From positions 193 through 64,192 of the forward strand of contig NZ_JGZR01000016.1 in the NCBI RefSeq assembly GCF_000741775.1: a DNA stretch of 64,000 bases, read 5' to 3'. This document shows, in pieces, positions 36,843 through 45,616 of the stretch; the first letter of the stretch is position 1, and every line of letters starts with the position of its first letter. A program made the position numbers and the translations under genes. The notes beneath the pieces are model-generated. The model made no database searches and was not told the DNA's origin. It saw only the letters and a list, made by a program, of their open reading frames with translations. The stretch is from Bifidobacterium subtile. GTDB taxonomy: Bacteria; Actinomycetota; Actinomycetes; Actinomycetales; Bifidobacteriaceae.

Positions 36843-38318
36843 TCATAGCGCGCCGAGCCGGTTGGCGGCGTCAGCTACGGCGGCATTGTATTGGCTGCCG
36901 CGATTGTAGGCTTCGACGGCGGTGATCCAGCCTTGGGATGTGGTCAGGTCGCCGCCGGCGGTGCATAGGTAGCCCGCCGCAGTAAGCGCCGCATCGTTGA
37001 TGTCGTTAGGATCGGCACGCGCATCGCCGTCGCCGTCTCGCCCGTAGCGGGCCCAAGTCGAGGGCAGGAACTGCATAGGTCCGACGGCCCTATCCCAAAT
37101 CGGGTCGCCATCGAGCTTGCCGCCATCCGTATCGGGCACGGCTCCAGTGCCATCGGAGCCGTCGAGCACTGGGCCGCGGATGAGCTTGCCGGGGTCGTGC
37201 TTGGTGCCGTGATCGCTTTCAACCTCGCCGATGCCGCCCAGCATGTTCCAGCCGATACCGCAATGAGGACGCTCGCGCTGCGCCAGAATCGAAGCGCCCG
37301 CATAGGCTTTGACGTAATCGACCGGCACGCCGGAGCGCTGCGCGATGTCCTGCGCCCAGGCATCATCGACCAAGTCGGCGATGACGATGCCCCGCGGCAC
37401 GCTTCGCCCTTGGGTACCAAGCTGGGAAGTGGTCGATTGGGATGTAGGGCTGGAAGCCGACGCCGCGCCGGAATCGCTCGCGGCAGCGCTTTGGCTCGGC
37501 GCATTCCTGTTGCTTGGCGCGGCGACCATGTTGTCGTTGCGCGGCGATGCTGCGCCGAAATTCGGCAGCGACAAGCCGCTAACATCGCCGCGCAGTCCGC
37601 TGGCAATCATCAGACCGGCATACACCAGCACGGCCAGTACTGCGAGCACGCAGCATACGCCCAGCAGGCGCTTCCATGATCGACCAAGAAACGCCACGCA
37701 GGAGCGCAGCGCACGGCGCGGCGGGCAGCGGCCGGCCATACGCTTGCGCAGCCGGTGCCACGGGCCTTCATCAGTGCCGAGCAAATCGACGCCCAGCGTC
37801 TGGCTGACCGGATCGCCCAGCTGCCAGAAGGAATCAGGATGCACCGCGTTGGATTGGGCGGTGACTCCAGTCTCAGGCCCGGCATCGCGGCCAAGGCCCG
37901 GCCCGATATCAGCGTTCGCGACAGGTGCGTGGATTGCGTGGTTGGAAACATCACCGCAATTCGTAGATTGCGTACTGGAGCGGCCGGCTTGGGCGGGTTG
38001 CGATGCTGCGGGATTGCCGAGTGGCACCCCGGAATAGTGCACGAATGTTGGCCTGCTGCGGAGCAAAGTTGCGACTGGAGAGCTTCGCGTTGCCGATCGC
38101 ATGACTTCGCTGGTGTCCCTGTCTCCAACCACATCAACGCCCGCACCCGCAGCAGCGCTACTCGTGCCGGAGAGCGCCGCGAGCCACAGTCCGGAGGCCG
38201 CGTCAACACCCGTGCCCGCAGCCACGCCAGCGACGCCCGCACCCGCGCCTGCAGCCGCGTCATCACTCACGCCTGCACCCATGCCCGCGACGCCGCGCAC
38301 CTCGCGCCTGTGCTTCAT
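36843..38318 (-). CDS. membrane-anchored lytic transglycosylase
   Basis: 491 residues. A low-complexity Ala/Gly/Val-rich start (about 1-110), a membrane segment near 225-250 (CCVLAVLAVLVYAGLMIASG), a Ser/Ala linker, and a C-terminal SLT/GH23 domain: GWNMLGGIGEVESDHG with the catalytic Glu, then AVGPMQFLPSTWARYG, DPNDINDAALTAAGYLC and AVEAYNRGSQYN. Cleaves peptidoglycan glycan strands. Its ATG overlaps the transporter stop (ATGA), so it belongs to the surface-protein operon. Confidence 0.9.
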   Translation of the reverse strand: MKHRREVRGVAGMGAGVSDDAAAGAGAGVAGVAAGTGVDAASGLWLAALSGTSSAAAGAGVDVVGDRDTSEVMRSATRSSPVATLLRSRPTFVHYSGVPLGNPAASQPAQAGRSSTQSTNCGDVSNHAIHAPVANADIGPGLGRDAGPETGVTAQSNAVHPDSFWQLGDPVSQTLGVDLLGTDEGPWHRLRKRMAGRCPPRRALRSCVAFLGRSWKRLLGVCCVLAVLAVLVYAGLMIASGLRGDVSGLSLPNFGAASPRNDNMVAAPSNRNAPSQSAAASDSGAASASSPTSQSTTSQLGTQGRSVPRGIVIADLVDDAWAQDIAQRSGVPVDYVKAYAGASILAQRERPHCGIGWNMLGGIGEVESDHGTKHDPGKLIRGPVLDGSDGTGAVPDTDGGKLDGDPIWDRAVGPMQFLPSTWARYGRDGDGDARADPNDINDAALTAAGYLCTAGGDLTTSQGWITAVEAYNRGSQYNAAVADAANRLGAL

Positions 38319-39967
38319 GCCTGTTCGACCGCAGCCTGACGAGAGTTCTTCGAGGTCAGCCGCGCGATGGCCTTGCCGACAAGCCCCTGCTTGGGAGAGA
38401 ACAGCCAGACGACCAGGAATATCGCGGTCACCACCAGCACGATCGTGCCGCCGGTGGGGCTGTCGAAGCTCCACGAGAAGTACATGCCGATCACGGCCGA
38501 CAGCGCGCCGATAGTCGGCGAAAGCACCATCATAACGCCTAACCGGTCGGTGAGCAGCCGCGTGGTGGCAGCGGGGGCGACGAGCAGCGCGAGCACGAGA
38601 ATATTGCCGATGGTCTGGATGGAGATCACGACGGCCAGCGACACCATGACGTACAGCACCAGATCCAGCGCGAAGACGGGAAGCCCTGAGGCTTTGGCCA
38701 TATCGCGGTCGAGCGAGATGCTCACCAGCTCCTTGTTGAGCAGGAACATGACGAGCAGAATCACGAATCCGGTGATGCCGACCACGGCGATATCGGAGTT
38801 CGGGATGCCGGTGATGGAGCCGAACAGGAACGACTGCAGCGAGCCAGCGTAGCCGGGCGCGAGCGAGATGACCACGATGCCCAGCGCGAAGGCGGCGACG
38901 AAGATGACGCCGATGATGGAGTCCTCCTTGATGCGCCGGTTCTGGCTGAACACCGCAACCAGAATCGCCGTGGTGACGCCGGCGATGGCCCCGCCGACCA
39001 CCAGATTGCCCGAAACCACGAAGGCGACGGCGAGTCCGGGAAAGACGGCGTGCGAAACGGCGTCGCCGATGAAAGCCATGCCGCGCAGCACGATGCGCGA
39101 GCAGGCCGAAACCGCGCCCGCGATGTCATGCGTGCTCATGATCAGCGTCTCGCCTTCGCTAGCCAACGTTGCGAACAGCTCGGAAAGCAGCTTCTGCGTA
39201 GGCATGTCGAGGCCGGTGAACGGCTCGTCAAGCAGCAGCACCGTGGGCTGCAGCGCCAAGGCCCGGGCGACGAGCACGCGCTGGCGCTGGCCGCCGGAAA
39301 GATCGCCCACCGGTCGGTCGCGGAACTTGGTCATGCCGGTGCGGTCGAGCGCTTCGATGGCCGCGAGATAATCCCGCTCCCCCGGCCTGCGGAACCAGCC
39401 GATCGTCTTGACCCGCCCGAGCACCACCGTGTCGAGCACGCTGATGGGGAAATCCCAGGCGAACTGCTGGCGTTGCGGCACGTAGCCGATATGCTTGCGC
39501 GCGTTCTTCGACGTGTCGCCGCCGATGGCGATCGAGCCGGAAACGGTGGGAATGAGGTGCAGAATCGAACGCAGCAGCGTGGTCTTGCCCGCGCCGTTCG
39601 GCCCGAGCAAGCCTACCAGTTCGCCGACCGCAGCGCTCATCGTCACGTCGTTCAGCACACGCCGCCCGGCCAGATCGACGTTGAGCTTGCTGACGGCGAT
39701 AACCGGTGCCGCATCCACTGCCGACCCAGCGGCCGCGTGCGAAGCAGCCGAAGCAGCCGAAGGGTCAGCACCCGCAGCCACGCCCGAAATGGGGCTATTG
39801 CTCCGAACCAAGTCCACTGCCGAGTCCACGCCCGAAACGGGGCCGGCACCCGCAGTCGACTGCGCAGCCACGCCCGATCCAGCGCCCGCATGCCTGCCGA
39901 CGCCCGAACCGACGCCCGCGCTCACCCCGGCGGCCGCGTGCTTACTCGCGTTTGTACTCTTGCTCAT
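38315..39967 (-). CDS. metal ABC transporter, ATPase and permease in one polypeptide
   Basis: 550 residues. After an 85-residue Ala/Gly/Ser stretch comes a ZnuC-like ATPase: GPNGAGKT (122-129), LSGGQ (223-227), LLLDEP (244-249), STHD (His280). At about residue 294 it passes directly into a ZnuB-like permease at RGMAFIGDAVSHAVFPG, a motif normally after the first membrane helix. So the ATPase tail and the permease's first helix are both missing. Members of this anchored-repeat transporter class normally have two separate proteins. Start overlaps the upstream stop (ATGA). Confidence 0.85.
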   Translation of the reverse strand: MSKSTNASKHAAAGVSAGVGSGVGRHAGAGSGVAAQSTAGAGPVSGVDSAVDLVRSNSPISGVAAGADPSAASAASHAAAGSAVDAAPVIAVSKLNVDLAGRRVLNDVTMSAAVGELVGLLGPNGAGKTTLLRSILHLIPTVSGSIAIGGDTSKNARKHIGYVPQRQQFAWDFPISVLDTVVLGRVKTIGWFRRPGERDYLAAIEALDRTGMTKFRDRPVGDLSGGQRQRVLVARALALQPTVLLLDEPFTGLDMPTQKLLSELFATLASEGETLIMSTHDIAGAVSACSRIVLRGMAFIGDAVSHAVFPGLAVAFVVSGNLVVGGAIAGVTTAILVAVFSQNRRIKEDSIIGVIFVAAFALGIVVISLAPGYAGSLQSFLFGSITGIPNSDIAVVGITGFVILLVMFLLNKELVSISLDRDMAKASGLPVFALDLVLYVMVSLAVVISIQTIGNILVLALLVAPAATTRLLTDRLGVMMVLSPTIGALSAVIGMYFSWSFDSPTGGTIVLVVTAIFLVVWLFSPKQGLVGKAIARLTSKNSRQAAVEQA

Positions 39968-41568
39968 GAAAGGCACTCCTTGAGGATGTTCGCGTTGTAA
40001 CGCATCATGTCGATATAGGTGTTGACTTTGCCGTCGAAGGTGTCGCCGTAGATCGGGCACACTCTGATGTGGTTCTCGTCGGCCACCTGCTGCAGCACGG
40101 AGGAGCGCGAGCGCAGGTTGGGTTCGAGGAAGACGGCGGGGACTTTGAGGTTCCGTATGGTCTGGGTGAGCTTCTTGCGGTCGGCGAGGCTGGGTTCGGT
40201 GGCTGGGTTGGGCGTCACGAACCCGGCGATTTTCACGCCGTAGGCCTGCCCGAGGTAGGCGAAGGCGTCGTGCGTGGTGACCAGCAGCCGTCGCGATGGC
40301 GGTATCTGGTTGATGGTCTTGCGCACGTAGTCGTCGACTCCAGCCAGCTTGTCGGTGTACGCCGTGGCGCGCTGATGGTAGTACGCGGCGTTCTTGGGGT
40401 CGACCTGCGCGAGCTTGTCGGCGATGGTCTGCACGTAGGCGATGCCGTTGCGCACGTTCTGCCACAGGTGCGGGTCGATGTCGCCGTGCACATGCGAGCC
40501 GAGCACGGCTTGCGGGAGCAGGTATATCTGATCGCGCGGATTGCCCAGAAAGCGGTATTCGCCGCCCGCCGGAATCTCGTGCAGGGCCTTGTTGGGCACT
40601 TCCACCACGACGTCCTTGGGCGCGTAGTAGTCGCGCTGCAGATGCGTGGCGGAGGATTTCTGCTCGTTGTCGGCGCGGTAGATGAAGCCGCCTTTGTCCA
40701 TGTCCACAGCCAGATCGGCATGTCCTTCGTCCAGCACCTTGGTCGCGCCGAGCTTTTTTGCGACGGTCTGCGAGTTGACGCCGACGGCGAAGACCATGGT
40801 GGTCGAGCCGAGCGTGATGGGCGGGGCGTCGTCGCTGACTTTGAGCCGGGCTTTGAGGCCGAGCTTGTAGACGCCCGGCTTGCTGAAGCCCCAGCTCAGA
40901 TGCGTGTGCGCCTCGGTGGGCAGGCTGACTTTGTCTTTGCCGTCGAAGCCGTCCGCCGAGTTGAAGTAGACGCTGACGTCGCCGAAGCTGCCGGTCTGGT
41001 AGGCAGTGAGCTGGCCCGGGCCTTGCATGCCGGTGGCGGTGAGCTCGACTTCGGAGCTGCGCTTGGCGCCGTACTGCTCGCCGGCGCCCTGCACAGCGAG
41101 GCCGAGCCAGACGGTGTCGAGCGAGACGTCTTCGACGAGCGGGATCACTTCGGCCGCGTGCTTGACGCTGCTTTCGGCCAGCCCCACATCGGGCACGCCG
41201 GGGCGCAGGTTGGCGTCGAGCGCCTTGATGATGCTGTGCTCCTCAAGCAGCATGTAGTTGCTGAAGGCCACATCCGCGTAGACGATGTCGCGTATCTTGC
41301 GCAGCGAGGGCTCGTAGCTGTGCGGGTCGGCGTTGTCGGGCACGATGGCGCTGACGTTCGCCTTGTCGCCGGCGACGTTGGAGACCAGGTCCTTCAGTAT
41401 GCCGGTGGTGGTGACCACGTTGAGCTTGCCGTTGTGCGGATTGCTCGAATCGAAGTCGGAGCACGCCGCCAGCGGCAGCAGCACGGCAGCGCTCACCAGT
41501 GCCGCGAGGCACCGGCGAAGCCGGGAGCGCAGGCCGTGCGCGTTGCCGGAATTCCCGAATATCATCAC
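39964..41568 (-). CDS. metal-binding lipoprotein with inserted anchored-repeat domain
   Basis: 534 residues. Lipobox LAAC (Cys36). A ZnuA/TroA-like cluster A-1 fold is split: N-lobe with VVTTTGILKDLVSNVAGD and NADPHSYEPS (metal His), C-lobe with GSHVHGDIDPHLWQNVRNG, TTHDAFAYLGQAYG and VFLEPNLRSR. Between them (about 145-275) lies one actinobacterial surface-anchor repeat with EAHTHLSWGFSKPGVYKL. This matches the anchored repeat-type ABC substrate-binding class. Captures Zn or Mn, or receives it from the surface proteins encoded upstream. Confidence 0.9.
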   Translation of the reverse strand: MMIFGNSGNAHGLRSRLRRCLAALVSAAVLLPLAACSDFDSSNPHNGKLNVVTTTGILKDLVSNVAGDKANVSAIVPDNADPHSYEPSLRKIRDIVYADVAFSNYMLLEEHSIIKALDANLRPGVPDVGLAESSVKHAAEVIPLVEDVSLDTVWLGLAVQGAGEQYGAKRSSEVELTATGMQGPGQLTAYQTGSFGDVSVYFNSADGFDGKDKVSLPTEAHTHLSWGFSKPGVYKLGLKARLKVSDDAPPITLGSTTMVFAVGVNSQTVAKKLGATKVLDEGHADLAVDMDKGGFIYRADNEQKSSATHLQRDYYAPKDVVVEVPNKALHEIPAGGEYRFLGNPRDQIYLLPQAVLGSHVHGDIDPHLWQNVRNGIAYVQTIADKLAQVDPKNAAYYHQRATAYTDKLAGVDDYVRKTINQIPPSRRLLVTTHDAFAYLGQAYGVKIAGFVTPNPATEPSLADRKKLTQTIRNLKVPAVFLEPNLRSRSSVLQQVADENHIRVCPIYGDTFDGKVNTYIDMMRYNANILKECLS

Positions 41569-44294
41569 GGCGTCACCACGCGGCGTCGCAGGATGAAGGG
41601 CGCGGCCGTGGCCACTGCGGCCAGCGAGCCGCCCGCCACGGTGAACGCGGCGGCGGAGAGCACCGGATGCCGGGCGAACATGCTGGACATCTTGCCGGCG
41701 ATGGAGCCCGGGTCAATGCCCAATGCATCGTCCAGCGCCTTGGCGGCCGCCTCTTCCTTGGCCTTGGCTTTGGCGGCCGCAGCGGCGGCCTCCTTGGCGT
41801 TCTTCTGCTCCGCGGCCTTTTCGGCGGCCGTCTTGGCGGCTTCATCCGCCGCAGCCTTGTCGTCGCCGGCCGCGTTCTGGGCCGGGGGCGCGGTCACCAC
41901 GCCGCCCGCCGCGCTTTTGACGGCGTCGCAGGAGATCGGCATGGCCTTGGGGTCTTTATTGCCCACGGTCATGTAGATCGTCTCGGTATCCGAGCCAAGC
42001 GACGTGGCGTAGGTCATGGTGATCTTGTAGTAGCCTTCAGCGCTGAAATCCCAGTTGGCGTGGGTGTGGGTGTGGGTGTTCTTCGGCATCTGGAAGATGT
42101 GGGTGCCGTTGCTGTCGAGCACGGTTTTGCTCGGCGCACCCAGGTTGCCGTCTAGCCAGATGCGCATCGAGCCGGGTCCTTCGAGCTTGTCGAGCGTCCA
42201 GGTGACTGGAATCTCGCGGCTGGAGAGGAACTGGTTGTTCCACCCAAGCCAGATGAGATTCTGTATCTGCGTCTGCGGCACGCTCCACCCGCGCGAGGTC
42301 TTGGCGCCCGGCTTGAGCCAGAGCATCACGCTGGACGGCGTGCGGCGCACGTGGCTTCCGGTCACATCCTCCTGGATGACCATCTGCATGCTGTTGGCGC
42401 TGGGCGAGTAGGCTGCGATGTCGATATGGCCGTGATCGAGCACGAACATGTTGGCCGAAGTGCACGAGGCCTGGCCGCCGCCGTTGCCCTTCGCCCCCGC
42501 GCCTTGCTTGCCGCCGCCAGAGTTGGCGTTATTGCCGTTCCCGTTGCCGCCCGCATTCCCGTTGCCGCCGATGACGCCGCCGCCATTGCCGTTGCCGCCT
42601 GAACCGCCGCCATTGCCATTGACGTTGCCGTTGGGCACCGATGGCACGTACGGCGCGGCACCGGTTGTCGTCGGCACGTTGAGATCTGCAGAACCGACCT
42701 GCGTGCCGTCCGCATTGCGCACCAGCAGCTGGTAGTCGCCGGGGTAGGCCGGCAGCGGCACGGTGATCGCGGCGGAATCATCCGCGCGGACCCAGCGGCC
42801 GGTGATGGCCCGCTGATACATGGGAATATCGCTGTCATGGCTTTTGTCGATCTTGCGCAGCACATCGACGAACACCGGCTGCCCGGCGAGTCTGCCGTCG
42901 GCCAGTTTGATCGGCGCCGTGGCCTGATCGGAGGCGATCGCGCCCACCGAGGCGACTCCGGCCGTCGTATCTTCGAGCGTGTTCACCGCACGCAGCGCCC
43001 TTGGCAGCGCATCGCCGGTGACATTGACCTGCAGCTCGCCGGAAGCCTGATCGGCATCCTCGGCGTAGCGCGGCACGAAGGTCGCCCGAATCGGCACATT
43101 GCCGGGCGCTGCGAACGAATGCACGGTCAGCGAAGCCTGGCCTTGCACGACCTTCGTGTAGCCCAGCAGCGCACCGGAATCCTCGCGCTCGAACTGCACC
43201 CAGCCTTGCGGGTATTCGAATCCGTCCGAGCTTACGGCGGCCTTCAGCTCGACCGGGGAGCCGGTGACCGCCGAAGCGTTCTCGGCGGCCACCGCGACCG
43301 GCGCCTTGTCGGGCGTGCCGTTGCCGACGTAGAAGACGTACTCCTGCGTGTCGGTCTGCGGCTTGCCGTCCACGTCGACCGTCGCCGACATCGTGTAGGC
43401 GTAGCGTCCCGGCTTGGTGAAGGCCCAGTTCATATGCTCGTGCTGCGGTATCGAGAGCACGTGCGTGTCGGGGAAGCCGAAGTCCTTTTGCGCGTCGGGC
43501 GAGCCGAGCTGCTTCACGATGCCGCCGAAGGAGTCATTCGACCACATGAACAGCTCGCCGGGGCCGTGGAAGTGCTCCATCTTCATCGTGACCTTGGAGG
43601 AGCCGTTGATATGCGGATTGCCTTCAAGCGCCTCAGTGCTGAATCCGGCCCAGAGCACGCTCAGATCCTGCGTCTGGGGTATGTACCAGAAGTCGCCGTT
43701 GTTCGTGGCCTTGTTCAGGAAGCTCAGGGAGCCGCCCATTTTGGCCGAAGACTTTTTCGCATTGTCCGGCAGCACGAAGGCCGACGCGCTGCTGTCGTAG
43801 CGCACGCCGTTGTCGGCGCCATCGTAGACGTTGTCGGCCTTGGTTTTGAGCACGAGCCTAGGGCTGTCGCCATCGGTGAGATACACCGACATCGCATCGG
43901 TGTGCACGCCTTGGATGGCGCAACGGGTGTCAGAGGCCGGCGAGGTCGTTTCGGTGCCGCTTTGCGGGTTCTGGTCGGTATCCTGTGCGCCGTTGGCCTG
44001 CCCCTTGCACAGGGTGGCATTGGAGTTGGGGTTGGCCGGGGCGCCGTCGGTGGCCGAAGCCTTGTTCGACATGCCGCTCAGGCCGCCGAATACCAGCCCT
44101 ACGGCCAGCATGCCTACGGCGGCCAGCTGCACCGGTTTGGCGATGACGCGCAAGGCCGTGGCCCGCAGGCCGTGCAGGTCATGCGGGCCTGGTTTTGCAT
44201 GCAAGCCGGGTTTCGCGATGTTTCCTAACTGATCGGCATTGTCTAATCGTTCAATCCATTCGGGTTGATCGGGCGAAGACGAGTTGGTGCTCAT
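41565..44294 (-). CDS. surface-anchored repeat protein of the ABC transporter cluster
   Basis: 909 residues from MSTNSSSPDQ (AGAGGGA upstream). A membrane-spanning signal segment at about 53-75, two anchored-repeat domains with PQHEHMNWAFTKPGRY and PKNTHTHTHANWDF, Ig-like middle parts, a Gly/Asn-rich linker (repeats of GGNGNGG), an Ala-rich helix near 840-880 and a C-terminal membrane helix ending RRRVVTP. Typical of the ABC transporter-associated wall protein. Probably extends through the wall and binds metal through its HxH clusters. Confidence 0.9.
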   Translation of the reverse strand: MSTNSSSPDQPEWIERLDNADQLGNIAKPGLHAKPGPHDLHGLRATALRVIAKPVQLAAVGMLAVGLVFGGLSGMSNKASATDGAPANPNSNATLCKGQANGAQDTDQNPQSGTETTSPASDTRCAIQGVHTDAMSVYLTDGDSPRLVLKTKADNVYDGADNGVRYDSSASAFVLPDNAKKSSAKMGGSLSFLNKATNNGDFWYIPQTQDLSVLWAGFSTEALEGNPHINGSSKVTMKMEHFHGPGELFMWSNDSFGGIVKQLGSPDAQKDFGFPDTHVLSIPQHEHMNWAFTKPGRYAYTMSATVDVDGKPQTDTQEYVFYVGNGTPDKAPVAVAAENASAVTGSPVELKAAVSSDGFEYPQGWVQFEREDSGALLGYTKVVQGQASLTVHSFAAPGNVPIRATFVPRYAEDADQASGELQVNVTGDALPRALRAVNTLEDTTAGVASVGAIASDQATAPIKLADGRLAGQPVFVDVLRKIDKSHDSDIPMYQRAITGRWVRADDSAAITVPLPAYPGDYQLLVRNADGTQVGSADLNVPTTTGAAPYVPSVPNGNVNGNGGGSGGNGNGGGVIGGNGNAGGNGNGNNANSGGGKQGAGAKGNGGGQASCTSANMFVLDHGHIDIAAYSPSANSMQMVIQEDVTGSHVRRTPSSVMLWLKPGAKTSRGWSVPQTQIQNLIWLGWNNQFLSSREIPVTWTLDKLEGPGSMRIWLDGNLGAPSKTVLDSNGTHIFQMPKNTHTHTHANWDFSAEGYYKITMTYATSLGSDTETIYMTVGNKDPKAMPISCDAVKSAAGGVVTAPPAQNAAGDDKAAADEAAKTAAEKAAEQKNAKEAAAAAAKAKAKEEAAAKALDDALGIDPGSIAGKMSSMFARHPVLSAAAFTVAGGSLAAVATAAPFILRRRVVTP

Positions 44295-44515
44295 GAGTTC
44301 CCTCTGTCTCTGTTTCTTATTCTCTGTTGCTGTCGTTGCATGTGCTGCATATGAACTGATGTGCCGTGTCGGCTCGTTGTCAGGAATCGCTCGGCTTCGG
44401 GCCAGCGGAACCGCCGCCTGAGGCGGAGGCTCTGCCCGACGCAGCACCCGGCCCACCTGCCGGAGCGCTGCCGTCAGCCGGCTTCGCGTCGGTTTTCGCA
44501 GCCGCGCCCGCTTCC

Positions 44516-45616
44516 TCATCGGCCTTCGAATCCCCATCCGCCTTTGCCCATGGCGGCGCGTTTGCTACGTCGGCCCTGAATCCAGACCAGCAGCACGATG
44601 ATCAGTATGGCCAGCGCGAGGCAGGCGACGATCACGCCGACCAGCAGCGTGGTCTGCGCCTTGTCCTGCTTGGCGAGCGCGGCGGCCCGCTCGGCCTCCT
44701 TCTTGGCGGCGAGCGCCTTGCGCTGCTGGGCCTCCTGCGCGGCTTTCTGAGCATCCGCATTGGCCGCTGCGTCGTCCTGCCCGGCGCCCGAGTCGGCCGC
44801 GTCGAAGGCGGTCTGCGGGTCGGTGGCGTCGCCGACCGCGAATCGCAGCGTGTCGGTGTCGCTCACGTGCTGGCCGTTCTTCAGGTCGCCGGATGCGGCA
44901 ATCTTGACCTTGTACACGCCCTGCTTGTGGAATATCCAGTTGACGTGGGTGTGGGCGTTGACTTCGATCCACGAATCCTGCGGGTAGGGCTTCTTGTTGC
45001 TCCACACGAGCTGCGGTGCGCCCATGTTGCCGTTTTCGAGGTATACGTCGAGGTCGCCCGGCCCTTCGACGCCTTCGAGCGAAAGCGTCATGCCGCGCTG
45101 CAGCTGGTCCATGACGCGCGGCTCCTGGGTGTTCCAGCCGACCCAAACCACGTCGGGGTTCTGCGTCTGCGGTATGACCCACAGGGGCGTGCCCGGCTGC
45201 TCGCCGATGAACGAGTAAGTGTCGCCGGAGGGCATGGGCATGATGGCCTTGTCGTTCACGTGCATGACCACGTCGCTGGGCATGCGCCAGTAGGAGACGT
45301 CGCCAGTGTCGTCGTGGATCTGGATCTTCCATTTGCCCGTGGCCAGCGTCGGGCCGAAGTCGATGTGGCCTTGTTCGAGCACCACGTGGCCGACGCCCTG
45401 CTGCTGGTCCGGGTCGATGGTCTGCTGCAGGTTGTCGTCGACGGCGAGCGCCGTGCCGGGCAGAGCCACGCTTATGAGCAGCATGGCGAACGCCATAAGG
45501 CTGCCGAATACGGCGGCGAACCGGCGGGAGAGATTGGGGTTATTGTCCGCAACTGTGCGGAGGAATGGTGCGGTTGCTTGGTTCATCGCTTCTTCTGGGC
45601 TTTCGCGTACGGTCAT
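44516..45616 (-). CDS. surface protein with one anchored-repeat domain and C-terminal membrane anchor
   Basis: 366 residues; MNQATAPFLR at 45586 is an alternative start with a fair ribosome site. Signal segment near 40-58, then the repeat domain with GHIDFGPTLATGKWKIQI, WVIPQTQNPDVVWVGWN, GDLDVYLENG and AHTHVNWIFHKQGVYKVK. An Ala/Lys/Glu helix and membrane helix LLVGVIVACLALAILIIVLL end at RR. The frame then stops after 16 residues, while the +1 frame stays open to 44380 with coding-like acidic sequence, so a frameshift is possible. First gene of the operon; a G9 tract lies 11 bp upstream. Confidence 0.87.
   Translation of the reverse strand: MTVRESPEEAMNQATAPFLRTVADNNPNLSRRFAAVFGSLMAFAMLLISVALPGTALAVDDNLQQTIDPDQQQGVGHVVLEQGHIDFGPTLATGKWKIQIHDDTGDVSYWRMPSDVVMHVNDKAIMPMPSGDTYSFIGEQPGTPLWVIPQTQNPDVVWVGWNTQEPRVMDQLQRGMTLSLEGVEGPGDLDVYLENGNMGAPQLVWSNKKPYPQDSWIEVNAHTHVNWIFHKQGVYKVKIAASGDLKNGQHVSDTDTLRFAVGDATDPQTAFDAADSGAGQDDAAANADAQKAAQEAQQRKALAAKKEAERAAALAKQDKAQTTLLVGVIVACLALAILIIVLLVWIQGRRSKRAAMGKGGWGFEGR

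Follow-up and report, generated by a model that had tools for sequence, protein, structure and literature searches.

The window, a stretch of 64,000 nucleotides from a contig of Bifidobacterium subtile, carries on its minus strand a run of ORFs within which an ABC ATPase and an ABC-3 permease are encoded as one protein. Its features are, from the upstream end:

44516..45616, minus strand: surface-protein-like ORF with a C-terminal membrane segment (translation, judged by eye)
41565..44537, minus strand: surface protein with choice-of-anchor M domains (profile)
39964..41568, minus strand: substrate-binding protein, TIGR03772 at 705.5 bits (cut-off 350.45), profile positions 1-486 covered
38315..39967, minus strand: fused ORF of 550 residues, anchored repeat-type ABC ATPase plus ABC-3 permease (ORF, translation, profile matches)
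39710..39967, minus strand: N-terminal extension of the fused ORF, rich in Ala, Gly and Val, about residues 1-86 (translation; pLDDT below 50 for residues 1-68)
39086..39709, minus strand: ATPase core, residues 87-294, kept from Walker A to the H-loop (translation, profile)
39080..39091, minus strand: junction codons V293 L294 / R295 G296, GTG CTG / CGC GGC (sequence comparison)
38318..39085, minus strand: permease part, residues 295-550, with family helices 2-9 and the C-terminal helix, first helix absent (profile, models)
36843..38318, minus strand: downstream ORF with a transglycosylase domain (SLT_2), its likely ATG overlapping the stop of the fused ORF (profile)

The fused gene and its operon

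The 550-residue frame has no internal stop and contains the Walker A, signature and Walker B motifs and the H-loop STHD (residues 278-281) of an ATPase. The ATPase part ends 13 residues past the HD of the H-loop, where the permease begins directly (CGC ATC GTG CTG CGC GGC ATG). Both halves score above curated cut-offs, the ATPase with TIGR03771 (285.8 bits, cut-off 268.8, residues 111-304) and the permease with TIGR03770 (377.6 bits, cut-off 296.8, residues 282-524). The matches cover profile positions 2-195 of 223 and 30-270 of 270, respectively, leaving the last 28 positions of the ATPase profile and the first 29 of the permease profile unmatched, and these are the ends that face the junction. 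At each end the fused ORF overlaps its neighbor in the sequence ATGA. Its ATG (39967-39965), preceded at eight bases by AAGGAG, lies across the stop codon of the binding-protein gene, and the ATG of the downstream gene (38318-38316) lies across the fused ORF's own stop (38317-38315). The locus is thus as the first-pass annotation had described it, with the H-loop region of an ATPase running in frame into a permease and the resulting ORF coupled to both neighbors.

The 86-residue extension of the ATPase is longer than the ATPase starts of a genus relative (G081) and of one Gardnerella-group genome, the relatives' starts that were compared. The downstream transglycosylase protein, which was scanned against families from an upstream GTG at 38474, has at its start (38197-38318) a low-complexity run resembling this extension (39710-39967), and short related repeats (families D2 and D3) are common to both. 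The ORF at 41565-44537 scored 169.9 bits with TIGR03773, under the cut-off of 190.3, and 197.9 against a cut-off of 55 for its choice_anch_M domain; its listed start is probably too early, as an ATG at 44294 (MSTNSSS) with AGAGG upstream looked better by eye.

The same ATPase, permease and binding-protein families occur beside choice-of-anchor M surface proteins in the anchored repeat-type ABC transporters (TIGR03770/03771/03772). In the known systems of this type the ATPase and permease are two complete and separate proteins, whereas the window has a single ORF and hence one chain. By analogy, the parent system would have taken up zinc or manganese, since in Corynebacterium diphtheriae the homologous genes (DIP0440-DIP0441 with TroA) are expressed less when zinc is present and more when Zur is missing, according to excerpts of PMC6711530, and in Gardnerella vaginalis simulated genital secretions induce the genes of a transporter of this kind 120-fold (permease), 62-fold (ATPase) and 86-fold (binding protein), which puts them in the top ten of induced genes (excerpts of PMC11979175). 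In a search of the host genome a Zur-like palindrome matched at two places, with two mismatches, against 0.8 expected by chance, and neither place was near the operon. This genome is a 2.79 Mb draft in 27 contigs that has further ABC-3 permease regions (C6, C1, and C3). The fused region itself is single-copy, with no second copy in the genome and no plasmid match at E 1e-60.

Two-gene relatives and the extent of the loss

We read out 105 homologous loci, comprising 14 genus genomes, the best 80 of 433 genome-contig relatives and 11 loci from the family, order, and class samples; five duplicate others, leaving 100 distinct, and two genus loci (L040 and L041) are identical to Gardnerella vaginalis records (L130 and L131), the genus sampled being the broad Bifidobacterium of GTDB. 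In none of the 105 were the genes fused: ATPase and permease were always separate, as the first-pass annotation had stated for homologous systems, while the script that gave this result did flag the window itself, the positive control, as fused. The fusion is real in the assembly and, among the loci read out, confined to the window. In the order sample (248 genomes searched) 20 genomes matched besides G000, and in the class sample (296 searched) also 20, with G193 and G343 present in both; eight of the 38 matching genomes were read out (L140-L143, L145-L148) and the others were judged by match alone, none of their matches starting before residue 268. These sample searches scored the best 12, 7, 5, and 4 candidates per genome. 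Candidate fusions whose matches reached the ATPase part (G237, query residues 218-538; G357, 268-544; G514, 246-538; G645, 248-546; and G632, 252-538) were all rejected, as ATPase and permease lie in separate frames in each, and the same is true of G478.

Several of the relatives are arranged such that the two genes share a frame. In Micromonospora costi (L053) and Jiangella (L054 and L058) ATPase and permease are in one frame with a single stop between them, and these loci rank first, second, and sixth among relatives, probably as one match can span both genes; overall, both genes are in one frame in 17 of the 94 relatives. Loss of the stop in a relative of this type would yield a full-length fusion. 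Another locus (L052; G095, C40) is a strongly diverged two-gene copy, unfused, with 11 conserved permease columns changed and the longest branch in the tree.

The permease (TIGR03770) is over its cut-off in 15 of the 112 genomes of the genus, including that of the window. This patchy distribution, together with the tree position of G081, which is far from the window and beside a Streptomycetaceae row (99/97), suggests transfer or repeated loss. Two family genomes and 11 genus genomes form a group with the window in that tree (99/95); we drew no age or origin from the tree, as its program flags meeting long branches and the end branch of the window (0.82, median 0.15) is among the longest.

Between the HD of the H-loop and the RGM of the permease the window has 39 nt, and the 94 distinct relatives have 242-398 nt more (median 247); for G081 the comparison is 284 vs. 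39 nt, a difference of 245 nt. With G081 as the reference, the window lacks 41 residues at the ATPase tail and as many at the permease start, the latter including the first membrane helix (residues 17-41 in the G081 model). That helix and the extracellular start of the TIGR03770 permease are present in intact relatives and absent from the fused protein. These comparisons indicate that ~245 bp were probably lost at the ATPase/permease boundary, and they support both the loss and the extent proposed by the first-pass annotation, namely the ATPase tail and the first permease helix.

That annotation had also suggested a deletion between similar words coding for VL. Words for VL match by at least three bases at the junction register in 72 of the 94 relatives, but by at least six bases in only 13; counted as the identical run at the two break points, there are 0-2 bases in 22 relatives, 3-5 in 59, and 6-9 in 13. 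Slippage at short VL-coding repeats is, then, plausible as the deletion mechanism. The short matches also bear on whether the isolate in fact has a normal two-gene locus from which ~245 bp were dropped in sequencing or assembly: collapse normally needs a long direct repeat, and the relatives show at most nine matching bases at the junction register. The assembly is a draft of 27 contigs and the fusion is known from this one genome's assembly; the junction, however, lies ~39 kb inside its contig, and the permease start is absent elsewhere in the assembly, as a search of the genome with the 60-residue intact permease start of G081 gave only the kept part, three diverged paralogs, and a weak match (E 0.23). 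We consider such an artefact unlikely.

About one deletion in three stays in frame, and thus the open frame alone is unsurprising. Chance does not account for the other features, namely that each half can be recognized, that the halves are cut at their facing ends and that no relative shares the fusion. Our search of open-licence papers found no ATPase-permease fusion of the anchored repeat-type family. Fusions of other kinds are known: in YtgCR of Chlamydia an ABC-3 permease is likewise fused, with the partner domain following the permease, and this partner is a repressor, not an ATPase. In the type II importers RbsA and NupO of Bacillus subtilis two ATPase domains are fused to each other (excerpts of PMC11466899), and so importer subunits are in one chain as they are here, but as ATPase with ATPase and not as ATPase with membrane domain.

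Membrane topology and the lost helix

If the permease start were cytoplasmic, the fusion would be topologically impossible. This possibility was overturned by the distribution of charge in intact relatives and by the extracellular start published for a related importer. The intact G081 permease is modeled with nine membrane-crossing helices by our count. Across 27 intact relatives, the N-terminal 16 residues have a mean of 0.1 K/R and 2.7 D/E, whereas mean K/R is 1.0 in the turn after helix one, 2.9, 3.1, and 2.0 in the helix 3/4, 5/6, and 7/8 loops, and 5.0 at the C-terminus. This distribution puts the permease start on the outer side of the membrane and the turn after helix one on the cytoplasmic side, so that in the fused protein a cytoplasmic ATPase joins a cytoplasmic turn and the eight remaining helices are natively oriented. 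In the models of MntBC of Bacillus anthracis the N-terminal stretch is extracellular and the C-terminus cytoplasmic, as described in excerpts of PMC8487065 and PMC11779740. The former also models MntC with nine helices, against the eight kept in the fused protein, and describes the N-terminal helix as amphipathic and at the membrane-extracellular interface; given this interfacial helix, the nine of MntC may be counted differently from the nine crossings of G081. The topology is permissive and does not by itself forbid function.

The first-pass annotation had left two outcomes side by side, a working one-piece half-transporter or a recent inactivating deletion. For the protein to work, two chains would have to dimerise with their ATPases in the cytoplasm and the eight helices as the metal path, served by an intact binding protein. 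The native topology, with positive charges in the would-be cytoplasmic loops of the intact relatives, speaks for this, as do the residues aligned with the essential triad of MntC (Asp47, His51, and Asp94; excerpts of PMC8487065), all of which are kept in the fused protein as D302, H306, and D349 and are conserved in 92, 92, and 90 of 92 relatives, the third pairing (Asp94/D349) resting on our own alignment. The lost ATPase tail is only weakly conserved, with four of 41 columns at ≥95%. The lost helix, in contrast, is as conserved as the remaining permease, with 12 of 25 columns at ≥95% vs. 129 of 270 across the permease. Moreover, excerpts of PMC11779740 call the N-terminal stretch M1-L20 of MntBC extracellular and essential and treat G27 as an essential residue, and in our alignment G27 falls within the lost helix. 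Lost-helix conservation and these published mutants favor inactivation over function.

Structural comparison placed the intact G081 permease nearest to PsaBC of Streptococcus pneumoniae (7KYP, 7KYO) among solved folds (PsaC, 7kyp_J: Z 30.3, rmsd 3.0 Å, 271 residues), and among the matches listed for the ATPase of the fused model PsaB (7kyp_G) was second by E-value (TM 0.80 by target length). PsaBC and MntBC have separate ATPase and permease chains and a complete permease start, and the fused protein has neither. The intact permease begins to match BtuC (1l7v) at residue 29 by structural alignment; on these models the lost helix should be the equivalent of BtuC helix 2, which we take to be the central helix of that subunit. 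The AlphaFold model of the fused protein (pTM 0.62) has high confidence over most of the ATPase and 58-64 over residues 291-320 at the junction, which counts against a working protein, although the model of the intact relative is also weak at the matching region (64-74 over residues 41-100) and the low values are therefore not specific to the fusion. In a Foldseek search with the fused model, the best 50 of 1596 rows were for the most part single ATPase domains, and the two among them that spanned both parts had rmsd near 29. In the model the last ATPase strand (291-294) and the helix that follows (from 300) are joined by ~5 residues, which looks short for the native arrangement. Taken with the absence of the fusion from every other locus read out, these points make a functional half-transporter very unlikely in our judgment. 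We give the same slight chance to its bolder form, in which the ATPase would stand in for the first helix, the chain entering the membrane at the cytoplasmic turn that precedes helix two, a single deletion having produced a one-chain importer with an exporter-like layout.

A protein that remains membrane-bound and has some ATPase activity or contact with the binding protein, but no transport, would be consistent with the ATPase motifs kept through the H-loop and with the confidently modeled bulk of that domain. No relative with such a role was found, however, and the lost N-terminal stretch is on the outer face, the side suggested for docking of the binding protein (excerpts of PMC11779740), and we regard partial function of this kind as improbable.

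Conservation, age, and the preferred reading

The kept parts have changed little. None of the 53 ATPase columns conserved in ≥98% of relatives is changed in the window, and from residue 295 on two of the 96 such permease columns are (E422D and A469T). The permease column table flags five of 101, but five of its columns, including flags 285, 288, and 292, are ATPase sequence left of the junction. In the alignment that was folded (A1), ATPase tails and permease starts overlap at the junction. In leave-one-out counts for the permease of the relatives, 72 of 92 have no change, 14 have one, three have two, two have three, and one has 11, and the two changes in the window are at the upper end of the range of relatives and within it. 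Such little decay means either that the deletion is recent or that the gene is still working. For the latter, the low number of changed columns, the open frame, the intact operon coupling, and the apparent constraint on the kept parts can all be cited.

The best reading, and one we hold to be fairly probable, is a recent in-frame deletion that probably crippled one of several metal importers. The operon would at the start have been an ordinary one, with surface proteins, binding protein, ATPase, and permease of an anchored repeat-type metal importer. A recent deletion of ~245 bp would then have crossed the ATPase/permease boundary, most simply via slippage between short VL-coding words, and by chance the frame would have stayed open to give a single ATPase-permease polypeptide. 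This polypeptide would be without the ATPase tail (~41 residues) and without the extracellular start and first membrane helix of the permease (~41 residues), its ATPase would still be cytoplasmic and its eight helices natively oriented, and transport would most likely be nil or poor, given that the missing helix is no less conserved than the remainder of the permease. The slippage, the recency and the loss of function are steps that we infer. Such a loss could be tolerated, because the genome has the other ABC-3 permease regions.

Were the fused protein functional, it would demonstrate the one-step conversion of a metal importer into a single chain at the cost of a conserved membrane helix, and would directly test which parts the permease requires. 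Were it not, the locus would record gene loss cleanly, at a stage when decay has not yet set in, with other importers present in the genome. In both cases the fused protein may be annotated as one of its halves and the other overlooked.
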